Positions 14,251 to 61,095 of a DNA stretch of 64,000 bases are shown here, piece after piece (within the stretch, counting starts at the first letter, position 1; the number at the start of each line of letters is the position of its first letter). The stretch lies in the NCBI RefSeq assembly GCF_002192255.1, contig NZ_CP021768.1:576001-640000 (forward strand). The letters run 5' to 3'. Made by a program: the position numbers and the translations under genes. This DNA is from Stenotrophomonas sp. WZN-1 (GTDB lineage Bacteria > Pseudomonadota > Gammaproteobacteria > Xanthomonadales > Xanthomonadaceae). A model generated the notes under the pieces. That model was not told the DNA's origin. It was given only the letters and a program-made list of their open reading frames with translations, and ran no database searches.

Positions 14251-14430
14251 GAGGCAGGGGGCCTCAGCCAGGACACGCCGTAAACCCCGCTCCGCGGTCC
14301 GGCCCAGCCGCTGGCGGCTGTGCGTTCGGGCGCTTGCGAAGCGGTGCTTCGCAAGCAAAGCGCCCTCACCCATGGGGGCTCGATGGCGCCATCCATGGCG
14401 CCAACGGTCCTGGCTGAGGCCCCCTGCCTC
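14251..14430 (+). repeat. large inverted-repeat element, copy A
   Basis: The outer arms 14251-14274 and 14407-14430 are perfect 24-nt reverse complements. Inside are the family core (gccgtaaaccc near 14277, ccatgggggctcg near 14370) and an inner hairpin GGCGCCAT-CC-ATGGCGCC (14385-14402). Compared with copies B-E this one carries an extra 70 nt or so, including the hairpin gcttgcgaagc/gcttcgcaagc. It lies between converging genes. Confidence 0.85.
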
Positions 14431-14586
14431 CTATGACAGTTTCCTGCGGGCGCGGACGCATCAAACCCAAGGCGGGAGCAAGGGCAAAAGCAAAAGCAAA
14501 AGCAAAAGCATCAGCACTTGCTCTTGATCTTGATCTTGCTTCACCCGGCTACCCGGCGGGAGAAGAAGGCGCAGGCAATGCTTGAA
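14431..14586. repeat. linker between inverted repeats A and B with period-6 tandem repeats
   Basis: Contains four copies of GCAAAA (14484-14507) followed by a degenerate cttgat tandem (about 14520-14537), both of period six. The same kind of period-six, GCAA-type tract flanks copies C, D and E, so it seems to be part of the element. Apart from the A and B repeats and the rhlE terminator, the remainder of the 14219-14817 gap holds no gene I can support. Confidence 0.6.
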
Positions 14587-14695
14587 GCGGATGGGCGTTG
14601 GGGCCAGCGCAAAACCGTGAGGCGCATGGATGCGCCGACCGAGCCCCCATGGATGGGTTTACGGCGTGTTTTGCGCTGGCCCCACGCCCATCCGC
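14587..14695 (-). repeat. large inverted-repeat element, copy B
   Basis: The arms 14587-14615 and 14668-14695 are complementary over 28 bp with a single bulged T. The core is in the opposite orientation to copy A: inner hairpin GGCGCAT-GG-ATGCGCC (14621-14636), then gagcccccatgg and gggtttacggc. The arm sequence is unrelated to that of copy A. Confidence 0.85.
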
Positions 14696-14741
14696 CCTCA
14701 GCGCAACGCACCGCCGGCTTCTACTCACGGTAGCCAGTAAC

Positions 14742-14769
14742 AAAAAAGGACGGCGCGTCAGCGCCGTCC
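14742..14769 (-). terminator. rho-independent terminator of the RhlE-type helicase gene
   Basis: On the reverse strand GGACGGCGC pairs with GCGCCGTCC (14748-14769) and is followed by six T residues. It lies about 50 nt after the helicase stop. Confidence 0.85.
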
Positions 14770-14817
14770 CCCGATAGCCTCCCGCGCAGCGGGAAGCACA
14801 ACAGCTGTCAGCTGTGA

Positions 14818-16233
14818 TCAGCCGGCGCGACCGCCGCCGTTGCCACCCTGGCCGCGGCCACGGCCGCCACCATTGCCGCCACCGCCACGACGCTGGCCCT
14901 GACCGGCACCCGCACGCTGCTGGCCATTGCCACCGCCCTCGCGGCGGCCACCGCCGGCCTTCTTCGGGCCGGCATGTGCATGGCGCGGCGCATCGCCGTG
15001 CGGACGGCGTGCGTGGCTCTTGCGCGGTGCGCGCTCGCCGGTATCGTGCTCGGCCTTGCCCGGCGCACTGTTGCCCCAGCGGATCGGCGTCTGCAGCTCG
15101 AAGCCCGGCACGTCGCGGATGTCCATGTCGCGGCCCAGCAGGCGCACGATCGCGCGCAGCAGCTTCACTTCATCCTGCGCCACCAGCGAAATCGCCTGGC
15201 CGGTTGCACCGTTACGGCCGGTACGGCCGATACGGTGCACGTAGTCCTCGGCCACCATCGGCAGGTCGAAGTTGATCACCTTCGGCAGCTCGTTGATGTC
15301 GATGCCGCGCGCGGCAATGTCGGTGGCCACCAGCACGGTCACGCGGCCGGCCTTGAAGTCACCCAGCGCACGCAGACGCTGGCCCTGGCTCTTGTTGCCA
15401 TGGATCGCCGCGGTCTTGATGCCCGACTTTTCCAGGAACGTGGCCAGCTTGTCGCTGCCGTGCTTGGTGCGGGCGAACACCAGGGTCTGCTCGCGGCTGT
15501 CCTGCGCCAGCAGGTGCAGCAGCAGGTCGCGCTTGCGGCCGGCATCGACCGGGTGCACACGGTGAGTGATGGTCTCGGCCACGGTGTTCTTCGGCGTCAC
15601 CTGGATCTGTTCCGGGTTGCGCATGAACTCCAGCGCCAGCTGGCGGATGTTGTCCTCGAAGGTGGCCGAGAACAACAGGGTCTGGCGGTTCTGCTTCGGC
15701 AGCTTGGCCAGGATGCGCTTGATCGACGGCAGGAAGCCCATGTCGAGCATGCGGTCGGCTTCGTCCAGGATCAGCACTTCGATGCCGGACAGGTCGACGC
15801 TGCGACGCTCAAGGTGGTCGATCAGGCGGCCCGGGCAGGCCACCAGCAGGTCCACACCACGGCGCAGGATGTCCAGCTGGTTGCCCATGCCGACGCCGCC
15901 GTAGATGCAGGCGCTGGGGATGCGCAGGTACTTGCTGTAGCCACGCAGGCTGTCATGCACCTGGGTGGCCAGCTCGCGGGTCGGGGCCAGGATCAGCGCA
16001 CGCGGCTTGCGCGGGCCGGCACGCACTTCCTGCGAGGCGGTGCCCAGATGCTGCAGCAGCGGCAGGCCGAAGGCGGCGGTCTTGCCGGTGCCGGTCTGTG
16101 CGCCGGCCAGCAGGTCGCGACCGGCCAGCGCCAGCGGGATCGCCTGCTGCTGGATCGGGGTCGGGTTTTCGTAGCCCTGCTCGGCGAGCGCGCGCAGCAG
16201 GAAGGGCGCCAGGCCCAGCGATTCAAAAGACAT
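14818..16233 (-). CDS. rhlE: DEAD-box RNA helicase, RhlE type
   Basis: 471 residues. All core motifs are visible: Q motif region NPTPIQQQAIP, motif I AQTGTGKT (45-52), PTRELA, motif II LILDEADRMLDMGF, motif III FSAT, and motif VI HRIGRTGR. The C-terminal tail of about 90 residues is rich in glycine and arginine (GGGRREGGGNG type), an RNA-binding extension common in RhlE proteins. It unwinds RNA during ribosome maturation or decay; the precise role is not shown by context. The 5' leader contains a perfect palindrome CTGTCCG-AA-CGGACAG (16261-16276), 28 nt upstream of the start, which may affect its translation. Confidence 0.92.
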   Translation of the reverse strand: MSFESLGLAPFLLRALAEQGYENPTPIQQQAIPLALAGRDLLAGAQTGTGKTAAFGLPLLQHLGTASQEVRAGPRKPRALILAPTRELATQVHDSLRGYSKYLRIPSACIYGGVGMGNQLDILRRGVDLLVACPGRLIDHLERRSVDLSGIEVLILDEADRMLDMGFLPSIKRILAKLPKQNRQTLLFSATFEDNIRQLALEFMRNPEQIQVTPKNTVAETITHRVHPVDAGRKRDLLLHLLAQDSREQTLVFARTKHGSDKLATFLEKSGIKTAAIHGNKSQGQRLRALGDFKAGRVTVLVATDIAARGIDINELPKVINFDLPMVAEDYVHRIGRTGRNGATGQAISLVAQDEVKLLRAIVRLLGRDMDIRDVPGFELQTPIRWGNSAPGKAEHDTGERAPRKSHARRPHGDAPRHAHAGPKKAGGGRREGGGNGQQRAGAGQGQRRGGGGNGGGRGRGQGGNGGGRAG

Positions 16234-16527
16234 TGAGTTTGCTCCAAGTACAAGAAACGCCTGTCCGAACGGACAGACGGGGGCAGATCAAACTGATCGG
16301 CTGACTCGGAGCGTTCCCGTGAACCGCGCTGCGAGAATTGGGTGCAGCCGGCACGAAGCGCAGGCTGGAATGCGTGACGAACGGCGTCGGAGTGGGGGCG
16401 GGCGAAGAGGGCGGACCCTGGTCGCCGGCGGTCCCGGAGGGAAACGGACGGCCGCTGCAGACCGCGCAAGTCTAAACGATATTTGAGACTTCACGCAAAA
16501 AGGCCTGTTCAGGTAGGGGGGCTCTCT
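16234..16527. other. leader and upstream region of rhlE
   Basis: First part of a 648-bp gap between divergent genes. It holds the palindrome at 16261-16276 in the rhlE leader and otherwise nothing I recognise. The second half of the gap is occupied by repeat copy C, so the forward gene at 16882 has only about 90 bp of unique upstream sequence. Confidence 0.4.
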
Positions 16528-16773
16528 GCAGGGCTGCGCCCTGCACCCGCAGAGGCTGAAGCAACGGCAAAGGCCGGGTTCCTGTGGGTAGGCGGGGTGG
16601 GGCCGGTGGCAGGGGACGCTGCAAGTACGTCCATGTAAGCTCGGTCGCCGCATCCATGCGGCTCACGCCCCTGCCACCGGACCCACACCGCCCCGCCAAA
16701 CCCGCAGACAACCCAGAGCCGGCTGTTGCTGTTGCTTTGGCTTGCAAAGCAGGTGCAGGGCTGCAAGCCCTGC
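16528..16773 (+). repeat. composite inverted-repeat element, copy C
   Basis: The most complete copy. It runs: hairpin GCAGGGCTGCGCCCTGC (16528-16544); period-six tract gaagcaacggcaaagg; left arm (16591-16614); core with inner hairpin CCGCAT-CC-ATGCGG; right arm (16668-16697); period-six tract gctgttgctgttgc; hairpin gcagggctgcaagccctgc (16755-16773). The arms are imperfect because the right one carries an insertion. The core is degenerate (gctgcaagtacgtccatgta where others have gccgtaaacccgtccatggg). Confidence 0.8.
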
Positions 16774-16881
16774 CGAACCCCCTCCTGCGGTAGGGTGGGC
16801 CAATGCCGCGCTGCAGCTTGGCGTCGCCGCAGATTTGATTACACTTGAAACTTGTTTGCCCACGACTCCGGACACCCACCC

Positions 16882-17871
16882 ATGAAGCTTGGTTCTTTGA
16901 AGGAAGGCGGCCGCGACGGCACCCTGATCGTCGTCTCGCGTGACCTGCGCCACGGCGTGCGCGCCACCGGCATTGCCGCCACCCTGCAGCAGGCCCTGGA
17001 GGACTGGAGCCACATCGCACCGCGCCTGAACGCCCTGTACGAATCGCTCAACGCCGGCGACGCCGATGGCGTGTTCGACCTCGATCCGCAGGCGCTGGCC
17101 GCGCCGATGCCGCGTGCCTATGAGTTCGTCGATGGCAGCGCCTACCTGCCGCATGTCGAACGCGTGCGCCGCGCCCGTGGCGCTGAGGTGCCGGAGAGCT
17201 TCTACACCGACCCGCTGATGTACCAGGCCACCAGCGCCGGCTTCTACGGTCCGCGCGACGCGGTCAAGGTGGTCAGCGAGGACTACGGCATCGACCTGGA
17301 AGCGGAGATCGTGGTGATCACCGACGACGTGCCGATGGCCGCCACTCCGGAACAGGCCGCCGGCCATATCCAGCTGGTCGGCCTGGTCAACGATGTCTCG
17401 CTGCGCAACCTGATCCCGGGCGAGCTGGCCAAGGGCTTCGGCTTCCTGCAGTCCAAGCCGCGCTCGGCGCTGTCGCCGGTGTTCGTCACTCCCGATGAGC
17501 TGGGCGCCGCGTGGCAAGACAGCAAGGTGCACCTGCCGCTGTTGACCCACATCAACGGTCAGTGGTTCGGTGCGCCGGAAGCGGGCGTGGACATGCAGTT
17601 CAACTTCGCCCAGCTGGTCGCACATGCGGCCAAGACCCGTCCGCTGGGCGCCGGCACCATCGTCGGCTCGGGCACCATCGCCAACGAAGACACCAGCAAG
17701 GGTGCCTCGTGCTTCGCCGAGCAGCGCGTGGTCGAAACCCTGCGCGACGGCAAGCCGAGCACGCCGTTCATGTCGTTCGGCGATGTAGTCCGCATCGAGA
17801 TGCTCGATGCCGCCGGCAACAGCATCTTCGGTGCGATCGAGCAGCGCATCGAACAGGCCACCAAGGCCTGA
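16882..17871 (+). CDS. fumarylacetoacetate hydrolase family protein
   Basis: 329 residues of the FAH fold. It most likely hydrolyses 4-fumarylacetoacetate to fumarate and acetoacetate, the last step of tyrosine/homogentisate breakdown, because maleylacetoacetate isomerase follows 14 nt later. The metal-site signature is in DLEAEIVVITDDVP and LVGLVNDVSLRN; GTIVGSGTIANED is the conserved C-terminal motif. I chose the ATG at 16882, which gives MKLGSLKEGGRDG, the standard N terminus; the upstream extension of ten codons has no homology signature. Confidence 0.88.
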   Translation: MKLGSLKEGGRDGTLIVVSRDLRHGVRATGIAATLQQALEDWSHIAPRLNALYESLNAGDADGVFDLDPQALAAPMPRAYEFVDGSAYLPHVERVRRARGAEVPESFYTDPLMYQATSAGFYGPRDAVKVVSEDYGIDLEAEIVVITDDVPMAATPEQAAGHIQLVGLVNDVSLRNLIPGELAKGFGFLQSKPRSALSPVFVTPDELGAAWQDSKVHLPLLTHINGQWFGAPEAGVDMQFNFAQLVAHAAKTRPLGAGTIVGSGTIANEDTSKGASCFAEQRVVETLRDGKPSTPFMSFGDVVRIEMLDAAGNSIFGAIEQRIEQATKA

Positions 17872-17885
17872 GCAGGGAGGCGGCG

Positions 17886-18554
17886 ATGGAGATCCCGGTC
17901 GACGACGGCATCGTGCTGTACACCTACTGGCGATCCAGCGCCGCCTACCGCGTGCGCATCGGCCTGGAGCTGAAGGGCCTGGCCTGGGGCGCGCGGCCGG
18001 TGCACCTGGTGCGCGAGGGCGGCGAACAACACCTGGACGCCTATCGTGCGCTCAATCCGCAGCAGCTGGTGCCCACCCTGCTGCATGACGGGCATGCGCT
18101 TACCCAGTCGCTGGCGATCCTTGAGTACCTGGACGAGCGCTTCCCGCAGGTGCCGCTGCTGCCGGCCGACGCTGCTGGCCGCGCGCGGGTGCGGGCGCTG
18201 GCCCAGCTGGTGGCCTGCGACATCCACCCGATCAACAACCTGCGGGTGATGCAGTACCTGGAGCGCACCCTGCAACTGCCGGCCGACGCCCGCACGCAGT
18301 GGACGCTGCATTGGATCGCCGAGGGCTTTGCTGCGATGGAAGCCCTGCTGGCCAGCAGCACGGACACCGGCACCTTCTGCCACGGCGACCGTCCCGGGCT
18401 GGCGGACATCTGCCTGCTGCCGCAGCTGTACAACGCGCATCGTTTCGGCCTGGACCTGGCGCCGTACCCGACCCTGCGCCGCATCGAAGCGGCGTGCCAG
18501 GCAGTGGACGCCTTCGACCGCGCCCGCCCGGAAAACCAGCCCGACGCCACCTGA
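17886..18554 (+). CDS. maiA: maleylacetoacetate isomerase (zeta-class glutathione S-transferase)
   Basis: 222 residues. The N-terminal thioredoxin-like domain has the zeta-GST motif YWRSSAAYRVRIGLELKG (the catalytic serine region), followed by NPQQLVPTL and ALTQSLAILEYLDERFP; the helical C-terminal domain contains ACDIHPINNLRVMQYL. It isomerises 4-maleylacetoacetate to 4-fumarylacetoacetate using glutathione, feeding the upstream hydrolase. SD-like AGGGAGG precedes the ATG at 17886. The stop is followed within 6 nt by palindromic repeat R1. Confidence 0.92.
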   Translation: MEIPVDDGIVLYTYWRSSAAYRVRIGLELKGLAWGARPVHLVREGGEQHLDAYRALNPQQLVPTLLHDGHALTQSLAILEYLDERFPQVPLLPADAAGRARVRALAQLVACDIHPINNLRVMQYLERTLQLPADARTQWTLHWIAEGFAAMEALLASSTDTGTFCHGDRPGLADICLLPQLYNAHRFGLDLAPYPTLRRIEAACQAVDAFDRARPENQPDAT

Positions 18555-18559
18555 AAGTA

Positions 18560-18622
18560 GAGGGGGCGGAGGGGATTAAGTCGTATATGCACTTACGACT
18601 TAATCCCCTCCGTCCCCTTTCT
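18560..18622. repeat. palindromic repeat R1
   Basis: Two 23-nt arms (18562-18584 and 18595-18617) with one mismatch enclose the 10-nt loop atatgcactt. It lies between converging genes. The right arm supplies the last codons and the TAA stop of the UdgX-family gene on the reverse strand. A second copy, R2, is at 21386-21441. Confidence 0.85.
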
Positions 18623-20060
18623 GCCGCAATCGGGCCAGGTCATCGCGGAACAACCGGTAGGCATCCTCGCGGCGGGCATCGTTGGTCTGCCGCAACACCC
18701 ATGCCGGGTGCACCGTGGCGTAGCCGCGCGTGCCGTCCTCGAGGGTGTGCCAGCGTCCGCGGTCGCGTGAGAGGTCGAAATCACGACCGAATACCGAAGC
18801 TGCCGCAGTGGCGCCGAGGCACACGATCACCTGGGGCCGCACACGTGCGATCTCACCCATCAGCCAAGGGCGGCATGCCTGGACGTGGCGGCTCTCCGGC
18901 CGCTTGTGCAGCCGCACCTTGCCGCGCCGTTCATGGTGGAAGTGCTTCACCGCGTTGGTGAGGTACAGCTGGGCGCGATCGATTCCCAGTTCCGCCAGTG
19001 CGCGGTCCAGCACCTGGCCGGCAGGTCCTGCGAACGGCTGTCCGCGCAGGTCCTCGGTATCGCCAGGCTGTTCTCCGACCAGCATCACCTCGGCGCCTGC
19101 CGGCCCTTGCCCGAACACGGTCTGCGTGGCCTGCTCCCAAAGCGGGCACTGGCGGCAGGCACTGGCCTGTCCGCGCAGATTCTCCAGGCTGCTGGAATCG
19201 GTCGCCGATGTCGCAGCGTTCGCTCGCAGGGGAATCCGGCGTTGCGGTGCCTGCGCGGGACGGTCATGCATTTCCTGCACGCGGTCGGACGCGTCCCTCA
19301 CCAGGCGTGGCAGCAATTGTGCTTCAGGCAGGTGGCGCCAGTACTTTGCCGGCATCTCCTGCATCATCATCCGTGTGTTGAGCCGTGCCGGATTGAAGAT
19401 GCTCGCGTAGTAGGTCTGCCACAGCGACTCGCGTGCGTCCTCGGGCGGGGCGTCCTCGCGCCGTGCGCCGGGGCCGAAGGCAAGCGCCTGCCCATCCCAG
19501 GCGACGCTGCGCGAAGGCGTTAGGATCGCCCAGCGCATGCCGGTGAAGCGGCGCGCGAAGAAGGGCGCGACCCGATCGACAATGTGGTGCTGTGGCTCGA
19601 ACCAGGCGATGAACGCATCAGGCTGGCCAGGCACCTCGCGGAAGCGCACGAACGCCTTCATCTTGTGCGTGTCACGGCGGACCGCCTGGGTCATGGCCAT
19701 CGCCCGCAGTAGGTCGGCATCGGCGGGGTTTGACAGCACCGAGCGTTCGCCATGGGTGATGCGCCACAGCAACCGGTACAGGAGGGCCATGCGCTGCCCG
19801 TCGCGATGACACAGGCAGGTGGCCGCCAGCTCCAGGAAGTCGCGCGGTACGTTCGGTGCGCCAGCATCGGCCTGCACGGGCGCCGAGGTGACCGCGGGCG
19901 CATCCAGCAGTGATGCGTCGCTGCTCTCCAGCCAGTCCAGCTGCTCCGGCGCGACGCCGCGCAGCAGGGCTTCACGCGCACCGTTGCGCCAGGCCTCCAG
20001 CGACCATGGCGGATCCACCCGCAGCGACCAGCGCTGCGCGTCAGGCCGCGGACGGTGCAT
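18600..20060 (-). CDS. UdgX-family uracil-DNA glycosylase fused to a DUF4130 domain
   Basis: 486 residues in two parts. The N-terminal domain (about 1-260) is the DUF4130 type that accompanies a radical SAM partner. The C-terminal domain (about 285-480) is a family 4/5-like uracil-DNA glycosylase with iron-sulfur cysteines (ACRQC 301-305, Cys396), GEQPGDTED (329-337) and the UdgX loop GKVRLHKRP (380-388), equivalent to KRRIH. In M. smegmatis UdgX the loop histidine links covalently to the abasic site; here His385 is kept but the loop is altered. The start overlaps the radical SAM gene by 20 nt. The last six residues and stop are encoded by repeat R1. Confidence 0.87.
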   Translation of the reverse strand: MHRPRPDAQRWSLRVDPPWSLEAWRNGAREALLRGVAPEQLDWLESSDASLLDAPAVTSAPVQADAGAPNVPRDFLELAATCLCHRDGQRMALLYRLLWRITHGERSVLSNPADADLLRAMAMTQAVRRDTHKMKAFVRFREVPGQPDAFIAWFEPQHHIVDRVAPFFARRFTGMRWAILTPSRSVAWDGQALAFGPGARREDAPPEDARESLWQTYYASIFNPARLNTRMMMQEMPAKYWRHLPEAQLLPRLVRDASDRVQEMHDRPAQAPQRRIPLRANAATSATDSSSLENLRGQASACRQCPLWEQATQTVFGQGPAGAEVMLVGEQPGDTEDLRGQPFAGPAGQVLDRALAELGIDRAQLYLTNAVKHFHHERRGKVRLHKRPESRHVQACRPWLMGEIARVRPQVIVCLGATAAASVFGRDFDLSRDRGRWHTLEDGTRGYATVHPAWVLRQTNDARREDAYRLFRDDLARLRQKGDGGD

Positions 20061-21324
20061 CGAACAGCGAACCCTGTCGCGGGGGCGGGGCCAGCTGCGC
20101 GCGTAGCGCCGCCGGATCGTCCAGCGCCTTGCGCGGATGATGGTCGGCCAGTTGCACGAAGGGCAGCAACTTGCTCATGGGCGCCTTCAGGCGTGCCACA
20201 TCGGCTACCCGCAGGCGACCGTGGCGGCGTGCCATCAGCACGCGCTTGACGTTGCGCACGCCGAGGCCGGGCACGCGCAGCAGCATTTCCTTCGGTGCCC
20301 GGTTCAGATCGACCGGAAAGCGCTCGGGATGGCGGATCGCCCAGGCCATCTTCGGGTCGATATCCAGATCGAGCATGCCGTCCTGGGTGGTATCGGTAAT
20401 CTCATCCACGCCGTAGCCGTAGAAGCGCAGCAGCCAGTCAGCCTGGTAAAGGCGATGTTCGCGCTGCAGCGGTGGCGGCTGCAGTGGCAGCTGCCGGCTG
20501 GCGTCCGGAATCGGGCTGAACGCGGAGTAGTAGACCCGGCGCATGCGGTAGTTGCCGTACAGGCTGTCGGCGCTGGCCAGGATCTGCTGGTCGTTTGCCC
20601 CGTCCGCGCCGACGATCATCTGGGTGCTCTGCCCGGCCGGTGCAAAACGGGGAGGGCGCGGGCGAGCGCTGCGGCTGGCCGTCGGTGCCACCGCTGCAGG
20701 GGCATTGCGAGCTTCCTTGGCCTCCTCGATGCGCCAGCGCAGTTCGCCCATCGCGCCACGGATCGAATGCACCGTCTTTTCCGGCGCCAAGGCGCTCAGG
20801 CCGGCTTCGGTGGGCAGTTCCACGTTGATGGACAGGCGGTCGGCATAGCGCCCGGCACTGGCCAGCAGTTCCGGCGAGGACTCGGGAATGGTCTTGAGGT
20901 GGATGTAGCCGGCGTAGCGGTGTTCTTCGCGCAGCTGCCGGGCCACTTCCACCATCTGTTCCATGGTGTAGTCCGCATTGCGGATGATGCCGCTGGACAG
21001 GAACAGGCCCTCGATGTAGTTGCGCTTGTAGAAGTCCAGGGTGAGCGTGACCACCTCCTCCACGCTGAAACGTGCACGGGGCACGTTGCTGGAAACCCGG
21101 TTCACGCAATAGGCGCAGTCGTAGATGCAGAAGTTGGTCAGCAGGATCTTCAGCAATGAAACGCAGCGGCCATCGGGCGTGTAGCTGTGGCAGATGCCCA
21201 TGCCCTCGGTGCTGCCGATACCGCCACTGGCGCGCGAATCGCGCTTGCCCGAGCCGCTGGAGGCGCAGGAGGCGTCGTATTTGGCGGCGTCGGCCAGGAT
21301 GGCCAGCTTGCGGATGGTTTCCAT
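20041..21324 (-). CDS. putative DNA modification/repair radical SAM protein
   Basis: 427 residues. The radical SAM cluster motif is CIYDCAYC (Cys66, Cys70, Cys73). A barrel region contains LFLSSGIIRNADYTMEQM and the C-terminal part has helix-hairpin-helix signatures (LLRVPGLGVRNVKRVLMARRHG), indicating DNA binding. This family is regularly found next to the UdgX-DUF4130 protein and overlaps it here, so the two probably act on the same damaged or modified base. The chemistry is not established. The pair is isolated between repeats R1 and R2, which suggests an inserted cassette. Confidence 0.87.
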   Translation of the reverse strand: METIRKLAILADAAKYDASCASSGSGKRDSRASGGIGSTEGMGICHSYTPDGRCVSLLKILLTNFCIYDCAYCVNRVSSNVPRARFSVEEVVTLTLDFYKRNYIEGLFLSSGIIRNADYTMEQMVEVARQLREEHRYAGYIHLKTIPESSPELLASAGRYADRLSINVELPTEAGLSALAPEKTVHSIRGAMGELRWRIEEAKEARNAPAAVAPTASRSARPRPPRFAPAGQSTQMIVGADGANDQQILASADSLYGNYRMRRVYYSAFSPIPDASRQLPLQPPPLQREHRLYQADWLLRFYGYGVDEITDTTQDGMLDLDIDPKMAWAIRHPERFPVDLNRAPKEMLLRVPGLGVRNVKRVLMARRHGRLRVADVARLKAPMSKLLPFVQLADHHPRKALDDPAALRAQLAPPPRQGSLFDAPSAA

Positions 21325-21343
21325 TGAGGAAACCTACGGATGA

Positions 21344-21366
21344 GCGGTCTCATTGGATGAGACCGC
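21344..21366 (-). repeat. 9-bp hairpin upstream of the radical SAM gene
   Basis: GCGGTCTCA and TGAGACCGC pair perfectly around TTGGA. It lies between repeat R2 and the radical SAM start, in the leader of that gene. There is no T run, so terminator function is doubtful. Confidence 0.4.
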
Positions 21367-21385
21367 CCCTGAACGCTTCAGAAGA

Positions 21386-21441
21386 GGGGGCGGAGGGAGC
21401 GACGTCGCAAGTGCATATACGACTTAATCCCCTCCGTCCCC
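21386..21441. repeat. palindromic repeat R2, degenerate copy of R1
   Basis: The right arm 21419-21441 is identical to the R1 right arm. The left arm 21386-21408 matches R1 only at its outer and inner ends; the middle has become gagcgacgtcgc. The loop aagtgcatat (21409-21418) is the exact reverse complement of the R1 loop while the arms keep their orientation. It lies 12 nt after the pilU stop. Confidence 0.8.
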
Positions 21442-21453
21442 TTTCTCGTGCGG

Positions 21454-22581: not shown

Positions 22582-22678
22582 TGCGAATTTTCCCCAACGA
22601 AACGGCCGACGCCCGTTGCCAGCACGGTGTCGGCTTGACGACAATGGCCGTGAACCGACAACCGGTACGGCCTCCCCA

Positions 22679-23949: not shown

Positions 23950-23993
23950 TTGCTTGATATTGTTTGTTTTTCGTTGCGATGAGCATTCAGCCT

Positions 23994-24025
23994 GAACCCC
24001 GCCCCGGCGGGGTTCGGTCTTTTTG
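23994..24025 (+). terminator. terminator of the DUF4398-OmpA operon
   Basis: GAACCCC and GGGGTTC enclose an eight-base GC loop (23994-24015), followed by cggtcttttt. It lies 45 nt after the OmpA-like stop. Confidence 0.85.
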
Positions 24026-24273
24026 ACGCAGGGGTCTTGTACCCCGCCTTGAGCAGGCGTAGGGTCAATCGTCCGGGACGCAATGCTGCGGACCGGACGA
24101 TGGGAGGGCCGGGCCGATGCAAGCAGGGCGCGAACCGCAGCAGATCGACGTGCGCAGGCCAGTGCCGCAGGTCGTTGCAGGCGTCCAGGTGGCCATCGAC
24201 CGGCGCTCCTCCATGAACAACGCCCCGTGCCTTGCGGCCGGGGCGTTCGTGTATCTGTCGAAGGAGGTCCATC

Positions 24274-48256: not shown

Positions 48257-48260
48257 CCCG

Positions 48261-49735: not shown

Positions 49736-49746
49736 GCGTTCCTCGG

Positions 49747-51967: not shown

Positions 51968-51968
51968 C

Positions 51969-52601: not shown

Positions 52602-52647
52602 CGGCACGAGGGCGGCCCAAGGCCGCCTCGTTTCCTGAGGGATTGCC

Positions 52648-53235: not shown

Positions 53236-53271
53236 GAGTTGTTGCCGGGCACGACCCGGCGAATGCGGCGA

Positions 53272-53913: not shown

Positions 53914-54836
53914 TTGGGTTCGAACTCCTTCGGTGCGTCGCGGCCCAGCAGGTAGCGCGCGGGGTTGTTCTCGAGGCGGTCGCTGACCCGGCGCAGGTCG
54001 CGGATCAGGCCGCGCAGTTCGGTCAGCGTCGGGCCCAGCTGGCCGAGGCCATCGTTGGCAAAGCTGTTGATTGCGGCGCGGTTCTCGCCAAGGATCGAAT
54101 CGGCGTTGCCGGCGGCCGAATCGAGCTTGGCCAGGGTGCCGTCGAGCTTGTCGATGATGCCAGGCAGCTGCTGCACCAGGTTCTTGTCCAGGCGCTCGAT
54201 GGTGCCGTTGGTGGTCTTCAGCGTGGTGTCCAGGCTGCGGGCCGCATCGCGTGCGCTGAGCAGCAGCGCCTGGGTGCCCTGGTCGCGGTCGGCCAGGCCG
54301 CCGCTGATGGTTTCCAGATTGGCCAGCGTCGCATTGATCGAGGCCACGTTGCGGTCGCTGAGGATCTGGTCCATGCGCTCGACGATGCGGTTGGCGACGT
54401 CGGTGATGTTCTGCAGCGCCGAGGGCGTGGTCGGGATGATCGGTGCCGGGTCCTTGTTGACCGTGGTCAGCGCCGGCGACTGTGGCGTGCCGCCGCTGAG
54501 CTGGATGATCGATGGGCCGGTCAGGCTGGTGATCGCCAGCTTGGCGCGGGTATCGGTCTTGACCGGGGTGTTGGAGTTCAGGCGGATGCGCGCGACCACC
54601 TGGCGCGGGTCGTCCGGCACCAGGTTCAGTTCGGTGATCGAGCCCACCGCGATGCCGTTGTACTGCACCGGGCTGCCCACCGACAGGCCGGTCACCGCTT
54701 CGCGGAACACCACGCGGTACTCCTGCCAGGTACGGTCGGAGGAGTACTTGGCGGCCCACAGGCCGAAGGCCAGCAGGGCCAGACCGGTGATCAGGGTGAA
54801 CGCGCCGATCAGCACGTAGTTGGCTTTGGTTTCCAT
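53910..54836 (-). CDS. MCE-domain substrate-binding protein, MlaD-like
   Basis: 308 residues. A single N-terminal helix (METKANYVLIGAFTLITGLALLAF) anchors it to the inner membrane. The MCE domain (about 38-115) has VGSPVQYNGIAVGSITELNL. The C-terminal 180 residues are helical and coiled-coil-like (LDTTLKTTNGTIERLDKN, LDGTLAKLDSAAGNAD), longer than E. coli MlaD (183 residues). That suggests a longer periplasmic shaft. It carries phospholipid between the membranes with the ATPase and permease of this operon. Confidence 0.88.
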   Translation of the reverse strand: METKANYVLIGAFTLITGLALLAFGLWAAKYSSDRTWQEYRVVFREAVTGLSVGSPVQYNGIAVGSITELNLVPDDPRQVVARIRLNSNTPVKTDTRAKLAITSLTGPSIIQLSGGTPQSPALTTVNKDPAPIIPTTPSALQNITDVANRIVERMDQILSDRNVASINATLANLETISGGLADRDQGTQALLLSARDAARSLDTTLKTTNGTIERLDKNLVQQLPGIIDKLDGTLAKLDSAAGNADSILGENRAAINSFANDGLGQLGPTLTELRGLIRDLRRVSDRLENNPARYLLGRDAPKEFEPK

Positions 54837-54839
54837 GGC

Positions 54840-55667
54840 TCAGGCACTCTCGATCTGTTCGCCACGCGCGGCGCGCGCGCGGGGTCCGTGGAAGTATTCC
54901 TGGATCCACGGATGATCCAGTTTCTCGATGTCAGGCAAGGGTGCGTTGGCCACCACCCTGCGGTCGGCGATCACCGCGACCCGGTCGCAGATCGCGTAAA
55001 GCGTGTCCAGGTCGTGAGTGATCAGGAACACGGTCAGCCCCAGTGCTTCCTGCAGGGTCTTGATCAGGCGGTCGAACGCCGCCGCGCCGATCGGGTCGAG
55101 GCCGGCAGTGGGTTCGTCCAGGAACAGCAGCGGCGGATCCAGCGCCAGTGCCCGGGCCAGGCCGGCGCGCTTGCGCATGCCGCCTGACAGCTGCGAAGGC
55201 AGCTTGTTGATCGCGTCGGCAGGCAGGCCGGCCAGTTTCACCTTCAGCAGCGCCAGTTCGTAGTGCCAGCGTTCGGGCAGTTCGCGATGGTGCTCCTTCA
55301 GCGGCACCTGCACGTTCTCGCCCACGGTCAGCGAGGAGAACAGGGCGCCGTCCTGGAACAGCACGCCGGTGTTGCGCTCGATGTGCAGGCGGCTCTCGGC
55401 ATCGTCGGCACGCGCGTCGCGGCCGAGTACTTCGATCTGCCCGGCATCGGGCACGCGCAGGCCGAGGATCGAGCGCATCAGCACCGATTTGCCGGTGCCG
55501 GAGCCGCCGACCACGCCCAGGATTTCGCCGCGGCGCACGTCCAGGTCCAGGTCTTCGTGCACGGTCTGGCTGCCGAAGCGGTTGACCAGTCCACGCACGC
55601 GGATGGCCAGTTCGTGGCCCTGGTCGTCGCGCATGTCGATGGGTTCGGGGAGGGCGGATGTGCTCAT
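54840..55667 (-). CDS. MCE ABC transporter ATP-binding protein, MlaF-like
   Basis: 275 residues. Walker A GGSGTGKSV, Walker B LLFLDEPTAGLDPIGA and signature LSGGMRKRAGLARAL (with the MlaF-type LSGGM) are clear. It energises lipid movement between the membranes. It starts 1 nt before the end of the permease gene and ends 3 nt before the MCE gene, so translation is coupled along the operon. Confidence 0.92.
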   Translation of the reverse strand: MSTSALPEPIDMRDDQGHELAIRVRGLVNRFGSQTVHEDLDLDVRRGEILGVVGGSGTGKSVLMRSILGLRVPDAGQIEVLGRDARADDAESRLHIERNTGVLFQDGALFSSLTVGENVQVPLKEHHRELPERWHYELALLKVKLAGLPADAINKLPSQLSGGMRKRAGLARALALDPPLLFLDEPTAGLDPIGAAAFDRLIKTLQEALGLTVFLITHDLDTLYAICDRVAVIADRRVVANAPLPDIEKLDHPWIQEYFHGPRARAARGEQIESA

Positions 55668-55668
55668 G

Positions 55669-56790
55669 TCACCAGTCCATGTGCATGAACCACAACGCCG
55701 CGAAGGCGTCGATGATGATCACCAGCGAGATCGTCTGCACCACGCTGGAGGTGGTGCGCTCGCCGACCGACTGCGCGGTGCCTTCGACCTTCAGTCCTTC
55801 CAGGCAGCCGATCAGGCCGATCACCAGCGCGAACACGGGTGCCTTCGACAGGCCGACCAGCATGTGCCGCACTTCCATCGTCTCGTGCATGCGCGCGATG
55901 TACATCTGCGGCGGGATGTCGAGGTCGAACGCGCCGACGGTGATGCCGCCGGCCAGGCCGGCGACCATCGCGATGAAGGTCAACAGGGGCAGGGTGACCA
56001 GCAACGCCAGCAAGCGTGGCAGCACCAGCAGGTCGACCGGGTCCAGGCCCAGGGTGCGCATCGCATCGATTTCCTCGCGTGCCTTCATCGCACCGATCTG
56101 CGCGGTGAACGCACTGGCGGTGCGGCCGGCCAGCACGATCGCCGTCAGCAGCACGGCGAATTCGCGCAGGAAGGCGATGTTGACCAGCTCGACCACGTAG
56201 ATCTCGGCGCCGAAGTCGCGCAGGATGGTCGAGCCGAGGAACGCGATCACCGCGCCGACCAGGTAGGACAGCAGCGCCACCAGCGGTACCGCGTCCAGCC
56301 CGACCTGCTCCATCTGGTGCACGGTGGCGGTCAGCCGGAAGCGGCGGGGTTCCTTGACCAGCCGGGCCGCCTTGACCAGGTTCTCGCCGAGGAAGCTGCA
56401 CAGCGCCTTGATGTTGTGGCCGGTGGTGTGGACGCTGATGCCCAGCCGTTCCAGCGCGGCCAGCACGCCGAAATCGCGCTTGGGCTTGGGCCGGTCGTCG
56501 GCCACTTCCTCGATGGTGCACACCAGCGCCTGGTGGTCCGCGCGGAACTGCAGTGCGTCTTCGTGCAGGTCTGCACGGTGGGCCACGCGCAGCACCTGCA
56601 GCACGCCGGCCGAATCCAGCTGTTCGATGCCGGTAGCATCGATGCCGGTCAGTTTGTCGGGCACGCCGTGCAGGACCTCGGCCGCGGCCAGCGCGGTCTT
56701 CAAGGTCCAGGTGCCGGACAGGCGGATCAGGCCCGGGTCGTGGGCATCCTGTTCGAGCTGGGGGGCGTGGTTCGGGGTCACTTGGGCCAT
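55669..56790 (-). CDS. MlaE-like permease with fused N-terminal STAS domain
   Basis: 373 residues from Met 56790 (MAQVTPNHAPQLEQ). Residues 1-100 form a STAS/MlaB-like domain with GIDATGIEQLDSAGVLQVLR. The MlaE permease follows (about 120-373), with about five helices and VLAGRTASAFTAQIGAMKA. In E. coli the STAS protein MlaB is separate and needed for transporter activity; here it is covalently part of the permease. The upstream ATG 47 codons earlier lies in the leader and has no homology. First gene of the operon. Confidence 0.88.
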   Translation of the reverse strand: MAQVTPNHAPQLEQDAHDPGLIRLSGTWTLKTALAAAEVLHGVPDKLTGIDATGIEQLDSAGVLQVLRVAHRADLHEDALQFRADHQALVCTIEEVADDRPKPKRDFGVLAALERLGISVHTTGHNIKALCSFLGENLVKAARLVKEPRRFRLTATVHQMEQVGLDAVPLVALLSYLVGAVIAFLGSTILRDFGAEIYVVELVNIAFLREFAVLLTAIVLAGRTASAFTAQIGAMKAREEIDAMRTLGLDPVDLLVLPRLLALLVTLPLLTFIAMVAGLAGGITVGAFDLDIPPQMYIARMHETMEVRHMLVGLSKAPVFALVIGLIGCLEGLKVEGTAQSVGERTTSSVVQTISLVIIIDAFAALWFMHMDW

Positions 56791-56882
56791 TCGGATCGCA
56801 GCATAACCGTTCTGTATCGGGCTTCGCGTCGAACTCGGATGAATTTCTCCGGTGGGGCCCAGCGTAGGTAATACTACGGCGC

Positions 56883-58142
56883 ATGTCCGCAGACGCTCAC
56901 ACGATCCCCACGCCCCAGGCCACCTACGCACAGCGCGTGGCCTTTGTTTCCGAGATCGCCGGACGCCTGCACAGCTATGGCACCACGGCCCAGCGCCTGG
57001 AAACGGCGGTGGTGGCGCTGGCCCGCCAGCTCGATCTGGATTGTGAACCGTGGTCGAATCCCACCGGTATCATCCTCAGTTTCAGCGATCCGGCGCAGGC
57101 GATCGGCTCCAGCGACATCACCCGCGTGATCCGCCTGGCGCCCGGTGAGAACGACCTGCACAAGCTCAGCGTCGCTGACCACATCGCCGAGGAAGTGTCC
57201 AACGGGCGGATGAGCATCGCCCAGGGCCACACCGCGCTGCGCCAGCTGGACAAGGATCCGGGCCGGCGCGGCAAGCTGCGCACCATCCTTTCGTTCACTC
57301 TCGGCGCGGCCGGCGTGGCCGGCATGTGGAAGCTGCCGTGGCTGGACATCGCCACCGCCGGTGTCATCGGCTTGATGATCGGCCTGCTCGGCATGGTCAC
57401 CGACCGTCGCCCGGCCACCCGCGAAGCGGCCGAGGCGCTGGCCGCGCTGCTGGCCGGCATGGTTGCCACCCTGGTGGCGTCCTTCATCGGCGCGCTCAAC
57501 CTCAATACGGTGATCATCGCGTCGCTGGTGGTGCTGCTGCCCGGCATGTCGCTGACCAATGCGGTCAACGAACTGGCCAGCCAGCACTGGGTATCGGGCA
57601 CCGCGCGCTTTGCCGGTGCGCTGACCACCATCATGAAGCTCAGCGTCGGCGCGATGATCGCGGTGACCCTGGCCGACGTGCTCGGCCTGGATCCGGTGAT
57701 CCGCGCCACGCGGCCGCAGGGGCCGTGGGTGGAGTGGGGCTCGCTGCTGACCGCAGCCTTCGCCTTCGCGATGCTGTTCAAGGCCAACCGCCGCGATTAC
57801 CCGTGGGTGATCGCCGCCTCGGTGGCCGGTTATGCGATCTCCAAGTTCGGCGGCCACGCCTGGGGCGCGCCGGCTGGCATCTTCCTGTCGGCGATGCTGC
57901 TGACCGCCGGTGGCAATCTGTTCGGTCGCCTGGTCGGGCGTCCGGGTGCGATCATCCGCCTCCCCGGCATCATCATGATGGTGCCCGGCAGCACCAGCCT
58001 GCGTGGCGTGCTGACCCTGGTCCAGCAGCAGGACGTGGGCGCCGGCCAGAGCGTGTTCCTGACCGTGCTCAACGTGGTGATGGCGCTGGTCGCCGGCCTG
58101 CTGTTCGGCAACCTGCTGATGCCGGCCCGCAAAACCCTGTGA
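56883..58142 (+). CDS. ThrE-type threonine/serine exporter family protein
   Basis: 419 residues. An N-terminal cytoplasmic domain (FVSEIAGRLHSYGTTAQRLE) precedes about ten transmembrane helices, with LLPGMSLTNAVNELASQHWVSG and RLPGIIMMVPGSTSLRGVLT as family signatures. ThrE-like proteins export threonine and serine; YjjP/YjjB in E. coli are the split form exporting succinate or amino acids. Here both halves are in one polypeptide. It diverges from the MCE operon and ends before a strong bidirectional terminator. Confidence 0.82.
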   Translation: MSADAHTIPTPQATYAQRVAFVSEIAGRLHSYGTTAQRLETAVVALARQLDLDCEPWSNPTGIILSFSDPAQAIGSSDITRVIRLAPGENDLHKLSVADHIAEEVSNGRMSIAQGHTALRQLDKDPGRRGKLRTILSFTLGAAGVAGMWKLPWLDIATAGVIGLMIGLLGMVTDRRPATREAAEALAALLAGMVATLVASFIGALNLNTVIIASLVVLLPGMSLTNAVNELASQHWVSGTARFAGALTTIMKLSVGAMIAVTLADVLGLDPVIRATRPQGPWVEWGSLLTAAFAFAMLFKANRRDYPWVIAASVAGYAISKFGGHAWGAPAGIFLSAMLLTAGGNLFGRLVGRPGAIIRLPGIIMMVPGSTSLRGVLTLVQQQDVGAGQSVFLTVLNVVMALVAGLLFGNLLMPARKTL

Positions 58143-58154
58143 TGATGTCGGTGG

Positions 58155-58174
58155 GTGTGGACCTCGGTCCACAC
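58155..58174. repeat. short palindrome, REP-like
   Basis: GTGTGGAC-CTCG-GTCCACAC, preceded by tcggtggg. It lies between the exporter stop and the bidirectional terminator, resembling GTGGGT-headed REP palindromes of Stenotrophomonas. Confidence 0.5.
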
Positions 58175-58180
58175 GCCGGA

Positions 58181-58218
58181 GAATGAAAAACGCCGGCGTC
58201 CGCCGGCGTTTTTCATTC
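58181..58218. terminator. bidirectional rho-independent terminator
   Basis: An 18-bp perfect palindrome (gaatgaaaaacgccggcg and its complement) around TC, with AAAAA on one side and TTTTT on the other. It serves both the forward exporter gene and the reverse H-NS-like gene. Confidence 0.92.
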
Positions 58219-58233
58219 CAACCCGATCCGGCC

Positions 58234-58617
58234 TCAGGCCTTCTTGATCAGGAAATCTTCCGGCTTCTTGTTGCCCTTGGCGGTCAGCTCAGCCATCCAG
58301 CGCGGCTGCTTGCCACGGCCGGTCCAGGTTTCCTTGGGGTTGGCCGGGTTGCGGTACTTCGGGGCAACCTTGCCCAGCTTGCGGCCGGCGGTCTTCGACG
58401 GTGCCTTGGCGACCTTGGCCACCTTGCGCGCGCGCGGGGCCGGGGCGTCGCCGAACAGTTCCTCGATGGTGTAACCCTCGGTCTTGGCCAGCTTGGTCAG
58501 CTGGGCGCGAACCTTGGTGATCGGCCGGCGCTTGGCGACGATGGTCTGCTGCTTCTTCGCGGTGCGGATCAGGGCGCCCAGTTCGCGCGCCGACAGGCCG
58601 GTCAGGTCAATGCTCAT
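58234..58617 (-). CDS. H-NS family nucleoid protein
   Basis: 127 residues. A helical N terminus (LSARELGALIRTAKKQQ) for oligomerisation is joined by a lysine/alanine-rich linker (KVAKVAKAPSKTAGRK) to the H-NS DNA-binding motif YRNPANPKETWTGRGKQPRWM. The linker resembles that of the BpH3/XrvA-type H-NS proteins of beta- and xanthomonad bacteria. It probably silences AT-rich DNA such as the O-antigen locus. It stands alone between terminators. Confidence 0.9.
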   Translation of the reverse strand: MSIDLTGLSARELGALIRTAKKQQTIVAKRRPITKVRAQLTKLAKTEGYTIEELFGDAPAPRARKVAKVAKAPSKTAGRKLGKVAPKYRNPANPKETWTGRGKQPRWMAELTAKGNKKPEDFLIKKA

Positions 58618-58803
58618 TTACGGTTACTCCGGAAACTAATAAGTGGACGGGACGAGCCAGTCCATGGCGTCGGCGGACAGAATAGAGATGAATTAATCCA
58701 AGCACAAATGCAGGCAGGACATGCCGTGGCGGCGCGCCGGCGCTGTCGCGGTGATTTTGACCGGATTATGTCCGCTGCAATATCGGCGCGCGCTGGCGCA
58801 GGC

Positions 58804-58831
58804 AAAAAAAAGACCGGGGCAGGCCCCGGTC
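58804..58831 (-). terminator. rho-independent terminator of proS
   Basis: On the reverse strand GACCGGGGC pairs with GCCCCGGTC (58812-58831) and is followed by eight T residues (58804-58811). It begins 9 nt after the proS stop. Confidence 0.9.
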
Positions 58832-58839
58832 GTTTCATG

Positions 58840-60543
58840 TCAGCCCTGCAGTCGCTGCAGCAGGGTCGCCTTGTCCAGGCTCTCCGCGTCGCTGGCGCGG
58901 CGCGAGCGGTACTCGTAGGTGCCGGCGGCCAGGCCGCGTTCGCTGACCACCACGCGGTGCGGGATACCGATCAGTTCCATGTCGGCAAACATCGCGCCAG
59001 GGCGCAGGCCGCGGTCGTCGAGTGCAGCGTCCAGGCCCGCGTCGCGCAGCTCCTGCAGCAGGCTGGCAGCGGCGTCGGCCACGGCCGCATCGCCCTTCGG
59101 GTTGATCACGCATACCACCACCTGCCACGGTGCCATCGCGTCCGGCCAGATGATGCCGGCATCGTCATGGTTCTGTTCAATCGCGGCAGCCACCACGCGC
59201 GAGATGCCGATGCCATAGCAGCCCATCGCCATCACCGCCGCCTTGCCGTTTTCATCCAGCACGGTGGCATCCAGTGCTTCGGCGTACTTGCGGCCGAGCT
59301 GGAACACGTGGCCGACTTCGATGCCACGGGCGATCTTCAGTTCACCGCCGTCCACGGCACGGTCGCCGGCACGCACGTTGCGGATGTCGGCCACTTCCGG
59401 CTCCGGCAGGTCGCGGCCCCAGTTGACGCCGGCCAGGTGGAAGCCGGCCTCGTTGGCGCCGACGACGAAGTCGGCCATTGCCGCTACTTCGCGATCGGCG
59501 ACCACGCGGATGGCCTTGCCCGCGGCGACCGGGCCGAGGAAGCCCGGCACGCTGCCCAGGTGCTCGGCGATTTCCGCCTCGCTGGCGAAGCGCTGCTCGT
59601 CCAGGCCGGCGACCTTGGCCAGCTTGATCTCGTTGACCTCATGGTCGCCGCGTACCAGAACCAGCACGAACTGCTGTGCCTTGCCTTCGCCGGCGATCAG
59701 CGCCACCGACTTCACCGTGCGCTGCAGGTCGATGCCGAGCAGGGCCGCGACGTCTTCGCAGGTCTTCTGGGTGGGGGTATCCACCTTGCGCATCGTTTCG
59801 GCGGCGGCCGCACGCGGCGCCGGATCGGCGGCAATCGCCGCTTCCATGTTGGCTGCGTAGTCCGAGCCGGTGGAGAACACCAGCGCGTCCTCGCCGGAAT
59901 CGGCGATGACGTGGAACTCCTGCGACGCATCGCCGCCGATCGCACCGGAGTCCGCCTGCACCATGCGGAAATCCAGGCCGAGGCGGGTGAAGATGCGGCT
60001 GTAGGCCGACTTCATGTTCTCGTACTCGCGCACCAGGCACTCATCGTGCAGGTGGAACGAATAGGCGTCCTTCATCAGGAACTCGCGCGAACGCATCACG
60101 CCGAAGCGCGGGCGGATCTCGTCGCGGAACTTGGTCTGCACCTGGTAGAAGTTCACCGGCAGCTGCTTGTAGCTGGACAGCTCGCTGCGCGCGAAGTCGC
60201 AGGCGGCTTCCTCGGCGGTCGGGCTGTAGCAGAACACCTGGTCCTTGCGGTCCTTGATCTTCAGCAGTTGCGGGCCGAACTTCTGCCAGCGGCCGGTCTG
60301 CTCCCACAGTTCCTTCGGCTGGATGGTCGGAATCTGGAATTCCACGGCACCGGCCCGGTCCATTTCCTCGCGCACGATGCGCTCGACCTTGCGCAGCACG
60401 CGCAGGCCCAGCGGCGACCAGGTGTACAGGCCCGATGCCAGCTTGCGGATCATGCCCGCGCGCAGCATCAGCCGATGGCTGGTCAGCTCGGCGTCGCTGG
60501 GGGTTTCCTTGGTGGTGTGCAGGTGGAACTGGGAGAGGCGCAT
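58840..60543 (-). CDS. proS: prolyl-tRNA synthetase
   Basis: 567 residues, bacterial-type ProRS with the editing insertion. Class II motifs: motif 1 near [21 protein letters not shown], motif 2 [21 protein letters not shown], motif 3 [17 protein letters not shown]. The INS editing domain (about 230-390) contains [15 protein letters not shown]. The C-terminal anticodon domain contains [15 protein letters not shown] chose Met 60543 ([16 protein letters not shown]), the conserved start; the longer frame passes through repeat D. Confidence 0.95.
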
Positions 60544-60606
60544 CGTCGGCTTCGGATAACGGCAGAGACGTCTATTCTGCCAGCCCGGCCGGGGGGAGGG
60601 GTATCG

Positions 60607-60772
60607 GCAGGGCTGCGCCCTGCACCCGCCTGAAGCAACGTCAACAGCAACAGCGGGCTTCCTGTGGGATGGCGGGGTGGGTCCGGTGGCAGGGGACGCC
60701 GTAAACCCGTCCATGGGGGCTTGGTCGCGGCATCCATGCCGCTCACACCCCTGCCACCGGACCCACCCCGCC
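60607..60772 (+). repeat. composite inverted-repeat element, copy D
   Basis: Runs from a hairpin GCAGGGCTGCGCCCTGC (60607-60623) through a period-six tract (gcaacgtcaacagcaacagc) to a cruciform with perfect 25-nt arms (60671-60695 and 60748-60772). The core holds gccgtaaacccgtccatggg and inner hairpin GCGGCAT-CC-ATGCCGC (60727-60742). The arms resemble those of copy C 44 kb away. It lies just upstream of proS. Confidence 0.87.
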
Positions 60773-60917
60773 TTCGAGAGTTTCCTGCAAGCTGCCTGCA
60801 TTTCTGTAGAGCCGAGCCATGCTCGGCTGCTGTTCGATCAATTCTCGAAATATGCGATTTCCATGGAGATTCATTCACGCATGGCGTGGATCTACTGGCC
60901 CCCGACCAACTGTCGAA
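60773..60917. other. spacer between inverted repeats D and E
   Basis: 145 bp of lower GC between the two copies. It contains the agagtttcctgc motif that also follows copy A, and the short inverted segment tagagccgagc/gctcggctgc. I see no gene or promoter that I can support. D, this spacer and E fill the gap between proS and the DUF4124 gene. Confidence 0.4.
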
Positions 60918-61095
60918 GGCAGGGCACTGTGGGTTTGCGGGGTGTCCGCGGCATGGATGCCGCGGCCAAGCCCCCATGGACGGGTTTACGGCGGCCCCGC
61001 AAACCCACAGTGCCCTGCCATCCCCCAGGAAGCCGCTCTGGCATTTGACGTTGCCCTTGCTGTTGCCTCTGCGGGTGCAGGGCTGCAAGCCCTGC
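60918..61095 (-). repeat. composite inverted-repeat element, copy E
   Basis: Inverted relative to D. Perfect 25-nt arms (60918-60942 and 60995-61019) enclose inner hairpin CGCGGCAT-GG-ATGCCGCG and the core gcccccatggacgggtttac. To its right are a period-six tract (gttgcccttgctgttgcc) and the hairpin gcagggctgcaagccctgc (61077-61095). The arm sequence is unrelated to those of A, B and D. It ends 10 nt before the DUF4124 stop. Confidence 0.87.

Follow-up and report, generated by a model that had tools for sequence, protein, structure and literature searches.

A 64,000-nucleotide stretch of Stenotrophomonas sp. WZN-1 (contig NZ_CP021768.1, positions 576,001 to 640,000; hereafter the window) carries five copies, A to E, of a large inverted repeat that, judged from its letters and predicted fold, is a variant of the RNA motif TwoAYGGAY (Rfam RF01731) with a bulged hairpin H1 and ANGGAN loops. 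We consider that these repeats probably specify TwoAYGGAY-type RNAs that bind the global regulator RsmA/CsrA, and that the copies, often in divergent pairs, may serve as a distributed binding reservoir. The fold, the functional strand, the loop code, the pairing of copies and the spread of the element were established computationally. An outer stem (22 pairs modelled) leads into a three-way junction, followed by H2 (9 pairs and a hexaloop), one A, and H1 (3 + 3 pairs, a hexaloop and a 5-nt bulge), for a size of about 96-110 nt. All five inverted repeats are present where an earlier note on this DNA had placed them, with outer arms of ~25-29 bp that contain one or two mismatches in some copies. 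Folded alone, three copies give z scores of -8.8 (E), -8.9 (B) and -10.5 (A), with 0 of 200 shuffles equally stable.

The earlier note had claimed that the structure itself is kept, and covariation bears this out, as compensatory change exceeds both a shuffled and a slid control, neither of which takes phylogeny into account. The alignment holds 68 copies, gapless over 96 columns and on the functional strand, chosen at <93% identity among 133 ungapped candidates; it excludes copies with inserts and those with gaps in the arms, and the structure was derived from the same 68 copies. Of 2516 cells, 97.1% are paired, versus 67.2% after shuffling and at most 46.0% after sliding. Both sides vary in 34 of 37 pairs (shuffled mean 27.2, with 0 of 500 shuffles as high), and the covariation score is 0.720 versus 0.180 shuffled and at most 0.125 slid. 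RNAalifold, unprompted, returns nearly the same fold plus one A-U pair in H2. Compensation had been seen at two helices; the covariation stands and the number does not, since all four helices covary, and 22 of 22 arm pairs in the outer stem change on both sides. A tandem G·A (G·A/A·G) occupies H2 columns 26-27/44-45 in 18 of the 68 copies, most others having standard pairs there. In relatives, a single place in the orthologues of copy C varies on both sides, e.g. GGTGGCAGGGG/CCCCTGCC versus GGTGGCGGGAG/CTCCCGCC and GGTTGAGGGGG/CCCCCTCAACC. The common core described beforehand needs correction for copy C, which lacks gccgtaaaccc and has gctgcaagtacgtccatgtaagct instead, itself a compensated change (GCC/GGC to GCT/AGC; CCC/GGG to TAC/GTA). 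Likewise, the outer arms are unrelated between A, B, C/D and E, as had been stated, but not genome-wide, where 94 of 105 arms link at <=5 differences in 18 (single linkage); arms of different genera look wholly unrelated by eye.

The strand quoted previously was the opposite one, CATCCATG being the complement of the motif-bearing CATGGATG. Mismatches in the arms indicate which strand matters. Over the inner 22 bp in 159 distinct copies of the own genome and genus, aligned without a G·U preference and skipping copies whose arm starts >6 nt from the core, mismatches read on the CATGGATG strand are G·U in 68 cases and A·C in 14 (56 versus 14 when only distinct contexts are counted, p = 4e-7). The same excess is seen in 56 copies from other genera (41 versus 5, p = 4e-8) and in 39 copies of a named set (32 versus 10, p = 9e-4), although these two sets, unlike the first, come from searches with a model biased towards G·U. 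If repair or a cruciform kept the arms alike, the two mismatch types should be equally frequent on either strand; as the G·U excess is confined to one strand, one single strand is selected, and of the two options offered earlier, RNA or a DNA cruciform, the symmetric cruciform falls away. The element acts as one folded single strand, most likely RNA.

Both apical loops on the functional strand read C-A-N-G-G-A-N-G, with variation almost confined to the two N. In the own genome and genus, where copies were found by a pattern that left the two N free and allowed <=3 substitutions elsewhere, CANGGANG fits the H1 loop of 157 among 159 distinct copies, and GGA is retained in 158 of these loops. The H2 loop was readable in 147 copies, of which 145 fit; the other 12, among which ten have a long insert, are not in this count. 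For the other genera, the covariance model gave 76 rows scoring above 48 bits; 62 of these had length 96, and removal of 6 belonging to the own genus left the 56 copies. Here H2 reads C56 A55 N G56 G56 A56 N G56 and H1 reads C56 A55 N G56 G55 A55 N G56, the N positions being T43 G9 A2 C2 and T44 C9 A2 G1 in H2, and T35 G14 C4 A3 and C28 T22 A3 G3 in H1. The named set was not used for loop statistics because its pattern fixed most H1 loop letters. Strict AYGGAY is found in 97 of 159 H1 and 143 of 147 H2 loops, and the first N is G or A in nearly all others. The two GGA are spaced by 20 nt. CANGGANG is the consensus of the CsrA/RsmA site, in which GGA lies in a hairpin loop, and one CsrA/RsmA dimer can bridge two GGA 20 nt apart. 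CsrA was found in 145 of 149 genomes of the family, including 135 of 135 good ones, and the own genome has one CsrA gene, whose translation reads by eye as an ordinary CsrA. RsmA is a likely ligand of the element RNA. Two kinds of altered hairpin were also seen. A distant orthologue of C (L098) has a different H1, with the loop CAGGATG on the functional strand, and ten copies (L013, L022, L024, L025, L058, L069, L075, L091, L094 and L096) have a block adding ~79 nt in place of the H2 loop. On the functional strand, this block holds the AGGA-loop hairpins GCGC-AGGACA-GCGC and GGGC-AGGAC-GCCC, exchanging one GGA hairpin for two.

The repeat had not been recognised as a named family, which proved wrong. 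In a cmscan of 511 bases, copy E matches RF01731 TwoAYGGAY, which had already been proposed to bind CsrA, at 60911-61026 (+) with 46.9 bits, above the Rfam gathering score of 43, and the model aligns to E end to end on the same strand. Over the genome (E <= 1), RF01731 yields 15 matches, all on copies found by our covariance model R1 and on the same strand. We treat the element as a variant of the known motif because E passes the cut-off, yet only 1 of the 15 genome matches does so. We note that reporting depends on the filter; E was missed in two other scans, and A-D and 15 further loci gave no match. TwoAYGGAY was presented as a probable RNA, probably not cis-regulatory, from human gut, gamma-Proteobacteria and Clostridiales in the account of Weinberg et al. 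2010 (PMC2864571). The RMfam paper (PMC4333381) records a tandem G·A, a poorly conserved external stem and two strong matches to the CsrA-binding motif, and words CsrA binding as a testable hypothesis. Going by these descriptions, our element shares with TwoAYGGAY two hairpins with AYGGAY loops, a tandem G·A in one stem, a poorly conserved outer stem and an occurrence in Gammaproteobacteria (PMC4333381, PMC2864571). It differs in H1, where it has the 5-nt bulge and the Rfam motif a long basal helix (8 model positions are deleted in E), and in the loops, which are ANGGAN rather than strictly AYGGAY. Of the possibility raised beforehand, a known repeat family whose arms are random and independent, the first half holds, as the motif is known, and the second fails, since the arms covary. 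The listed articles that name TwoAYGGAY in their searchable full text, supplements excepted, describe no dispersed repeat family, and the scale of the element (133 copies; 43 of 229 class genomes) and its near-fixed back-to-back pairing were not found in the literature searched.

Other known systems were compared with the element. The CsrB/Rsm RNAs, which sequester RsmA, are single-locus small RNAs with several GGA each, placed in hairpin loops. CsrB, RsmX, RsmY, RsmZ and RsmU resemble the element in their GGA motifs, whereas the element occupies many loci with two GGA each. RsmU of Xanthomonas is described as having four predicted GGA motifs, deriving from the 3' untranslated region (UTR) of one gene and being limited to the genus (PMC7694677). 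The same account reports, from its authors' BLAST searches, that Xanthomonas is without homologues of CsrB/RsmB, CsrC, RsmV, W, X, Y and Z (PMC7694677). No RsmA-sequestering RNA of Stenotrophomonas was among the matches listed in our literature searches. The SMAG/GTAG repetitive extragenic palindromes (REPs), stem-loops of 20-40 bp with a terminal GTAG, were rejected, in agreement with the earlier exclusion of SMAG; the element has no GTAG tag, is about 96-110 nt in size and has a three-way junction. Like SMAG/GTAG REPs and REPINs, it forms dispersed intergenic palindromes and inverted doublets; unlike them, its core is not beside the Y1_Tnp genes of this genome. The terminal inverted repeats (TIRs) of TIRYT genes (S. 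maltophilia K279a open reading frames 1152 and 4509) were considered since those of 1152 form pairs and are self-complementary. The comparison was made with the TIRYT-like gene of the present genome (L031), equated with K279a 1152 by rough genome position only; this gene is flanked by GGGGTCAGATCCCTTT, which fits GGGGWSAS, and bears GGGGTCAGATCC ends, and the element core is absent there. Integron attC sites, CRISPR and intrinsic terminators were considered in general terms only and set aside. An attC site keeps its ends and varies in its interior; the element does the reverse.

A covariance model was built and searched, as the earlier note had proposed. This model, R1, made from 68 non-redundant copies with a first search stage that scored at most 150 candidates, finds 133 copies in the 4.51-Mb genome at E <= 0.01. 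Chance is excluded because the core pattern at <=3 mismatches gives 85 genome matches versus 0 for a reversed control, and the covariance model 133. Long inverted repeats found without the core pattern, in loci fetched around copies, number 176, of which 148 have the core at <=5 substitutions, 4 match it only at 7-8 substitutions (other repeats) and 24 are without it. At E <= 0.001, R1 finds the element in 43 of 149 genomes of the family Xanthomonadaceae (17 of 54 genera) and in 43 of 229 genomes sampled across the class (37 of 195 genera). These surveys used stricter filters, with at most 28 or 18 candidates scored per genome, so that positives and copy numbers are lower bounds. RF01731 (E <= 0.01) matches 18 of the 229 class genomes, 11 of them above the cut-off; 5 genomes are common to both models and 56 are positive with the two combined. 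When 36 positive genomes were searched more fully, copy numbers ranged from 1 to at least 116, followed by 115, 103, 93, 80, 75 and 73. Hosts among the matches listed in a pattern scan include Marinobacter, Microbulbifer, Rheinheimera, Halopseudomonas and Cellvibrio, as well as Oceanimonas, Zobellella, Sedimenticola, Luteimonas and Stenotrophomonas.

The 133 own copies group into 43 pairs and 47 singles, the latter 24 on the minus and 23 on the plus strand, which makes 90 clusters. In 43 of 43 pairs the functional strands diverge, with starts 218-370 bp apart. In a second set of loci, 21 of 24 close neighbours diverge (3 of them of the own genus), and the 3 that converge belong to two tandem arrays. 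The named set has 13 diverging neighbours and 1 tandem; spacing in other genera is often near 160 bp. Several pairs stand in a tandem row at L186 and L188. In a few nominal singles, such as L013, the partner is present but disrupted by an insert. A promoter within the pair middles was considered and set aside; no promoter scan was run, and the 31 of 43 middles that were read are nests of other repeats, commonly SMAG-like or GGGGTCAGATCC ones. Along with SMAG-like repeats, GGGGTCAGATCCG...CGGATCTGACCCC repeats nest in pair middles (e.g. window 60770-60920) as if these were a preferred landing site. Gene contexts come from a heuristic based on codon usage, for which six window genes served as the training set. 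For 57 clusters the flanks sufficed; 0 of them lie inside a predicted gene, 18 being in convergent, 31 in tandem and 5 in divergent contexts, with 3 unassigned.

In the window, copies A and B form one pair (14251..14695; minus, then plus) in a convergent gap between a peptidase-like gene (+) and a DEAD-box-like gene (-); this and the other gene names come from reading the translations. Copy A (14251..14430) has minus as its functional CANGGANG strand and retains the motif in the H2 loop at 14390-14397 alone (R1 590343-590423 (-), 34.8 bits, E 0.0015). Its ~82-bp H1 insert (window 14288-14369) is common to two orthologues of C (L087 and L088). Copy B (14587..14695, +) has CATGGATG loops at 14625-14632 (H2) and 14648-14655 (H1) and corresponds to R1 590593-590689 (+), 90.5 bits. 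Copy C (16591..16697, -; R1 592594-592689 (-), 91.8 bits) is a single, of the TAC/GTA stem type in H1, in the divergent gap between the DEAD-box-like gene (-) and an FAH-like gene (+); its loops read on the plus strand as CATCCATG at 16651-16658 (H2) and CGTCCATG at 16628-16635 (H1). The second pair, D/E (60671..61019; minus, then plus), lies between proS-like and DUF4124-like genes, both on the minus strand, and has a SMAG-like GTAG repeat in its middle. Copy D (60671..60772, -; R1 636674-636769 (-), 106 bits) shows CATCCATG at 60731-60738 (H2) and CGTCCATG at 60708-60715 (H1) on the plus strand, and copy E (60918..61019, +; R1 636921-637016 (+), 105.1 bits) shows CATGGATG at 60952-60959 (H2) and CATGGACG at 60975-60982 (H1). 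Inverted GCAGGGCTGC..GCCCTGCACCCGC hairpins and hexamer tracts, e.g. (CAACGT)n or (GCAAAA)n, flank the composites at 16516-16785 and 60595-61106. A different near-palindromic repeat (AGGGGGCGGAGGG...) occurs at 18556-18622 and 21380-21446, the two being 84% alike and outside the TwoAYGGAY-like family.

The element looks mobile because its copies in genome G120 are near-identical and the C locus turns over. Of 20 copies fetched from G120, 19 share their arms and are near-identical, most lying within a longer repeated stretch. At the C locus (30 loci compared, of which 9 were not anchored and L083 was read in the wrong orientation), cores and inserts change among near relatives, and five more distant species (L099, L101, L103, L105 and L110) read through to the next gene without an element. 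The arms seem to be part of the element because the empty C loci show no arm sequence (by eye) and 19 of 20 G120 copies share arms; arms as palindromes of the insertion site were rejected on this basis. Such turnover and the near-identity of the G120 copies, together with the high copy number, the REPIN-style doublets and the lack of orientation preference relative to genes, would suit a REPIN-like mobile DNA element. In that case an HUH (Y1) transposase, or one of another kind, would recognise the conserved double hairpin on one DNA strand while this is transferred in single-stranded form, and RNA would be irrelevant. We regard this as unlikely. Matches to the Y1 transposase (PF01797), the sole transposase family compared, occur in 102 of the 149 family genomes and in none of G120, G143, G070 and G090; 11 of the 43 element-bearing family genomes are unmatched, including G120 (75 copies) and G143 (73). 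Presence of Y1_Tnp and of the element show no association over the 149 genomes (32/11 versus 70/36, p = 0.34), on which ground Y1_Tnp was rejected as the mover. The core is absent from the 11-12-kb stretches around the four Y1_Tnp genes of the own genome (best 8-9 mismatches in 24); one bare 11-base GCCGTRAACCC lies in L080. Moreover, loop variation obeys CANGGANG.

The same loop constraint bears on the idea that the hairpins protect 3' ends or stop transcription in the manner of bacterial interspersed mosaic elements (BIMEs), the GGA loops being incidental. The folds are very stable, and the heuristic gene calls given above, with 0 of 57 examined clusters (of 90) inside predicted genes and 18 convergent, 31 tandem and 5 divergent, fit this idea. 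Protection needs no fixed letters in the loop, but 158 of 159 H1 loops and nearly all 56 copies elsewhere retain GGA; by eye, none of the five stems in the window is followed by a T tract on its functional strand, and copy C sits in a divergent gap. We therefore give this explanation little credence. Least credible is a DNA palindrome, whether a cruciform or a by-product of repair, in which template switching or conversion keeps the arms the same and no folded strand is under selection. Its arms would be long and nearly perfect, as observed, and copies do swap types quickly, but templated repair should produce no one-strand excess of G·U relative to A·C (68/14, 41/5 and 32/10), and it leaves both the loop constraint and the compensated H1 changes unexplained.

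In the RsmA/CsrA-binding mechanism that we favour, each repeat would encode a TwoAYGGAY-type RNA on the CATGGATG strand, whose transcription we presume. A stem of 22-29 bp, free in sequence, would close the three-way junction, from which H2 and then H1 would each present a hexaloop A-N-G-G-A-N closed by C-G, and one RsmA/CsrA dimer would clamp both loops of one copy. The long stem may present and protect the site; its arms could drift yet stay paired because only stem pairing would matter. With divergent intergenic pairs, transcription from either side would give one working copy, and about 130 copies together may form a distributed reservoir for RsmA.

A number of observations weigh against this proposal. 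The bulge is conserved, mostly as UUYAC, and neither it nor the junction letters are accounted for by CsrA. Two H1 and two H2 loops of the own genome and genus deviate from CANGGANG, and in copy A the ~82-bp insert (roughly 14288-14369) splits H1, whose GGA is gone. Fourteen of the 15 RF01731 genome matches score only 23-39.6, E alone being above the cut-off, and the tandem G·A is found in just 2 of 56 copies from other genera. The wobble test, two sets of which came from a G·U-favouring model, cannot part RNA from single-stranded DNA because G·T is also the better mismatch there. Where a single copy lies in a tandem gene context, it is sense in 7 cases and antisense in 9; this leaves no cis 3'-UTR logic for the upstream gene, and cis 3'-UTR regulation was accordingly rejected. 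To these we add the apparent mobility described above and the fact that CsrA does not need the element, since CsrA is almost everywhere and just 43 of 149 family genomes carry the element.

That many weakly transcribed copies would together amount to an RsmA sponge has at best an even chance. Going further, a mobile, class-wide RNA element of about 130 copies per genome might act as a distributed RsmA/CsrA sponge that replaces missing RsmX/Y/Z-type RNAs in Stenotrophomonas and its relatives, a reading which we offer tentatively and rather doubt; a stronger form would have a selfish element exploit CsrA binding to stabilise or spread itself. The sponge reading is testable and useful because Xanthomonas is without the classical RNAs and none was listed for Stenotrophomonas. 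Were it true, free RsmA would be set by genome copy number and not by the promoter of one small RNA. Even if RsmA does not bind, R1 finds 133 copies where the Rfam model gives 15, with 1 above the cut-off. If RsmA does bind, an unexplained class of repeats would join a central regulatory circuit, a motif that was first catalogued in 2010, and whose function was still described as unknown in 2014, would gain a mechanism, and the family would exemplify the spread of binding sites for a regulator in the form of dispersed repeats.

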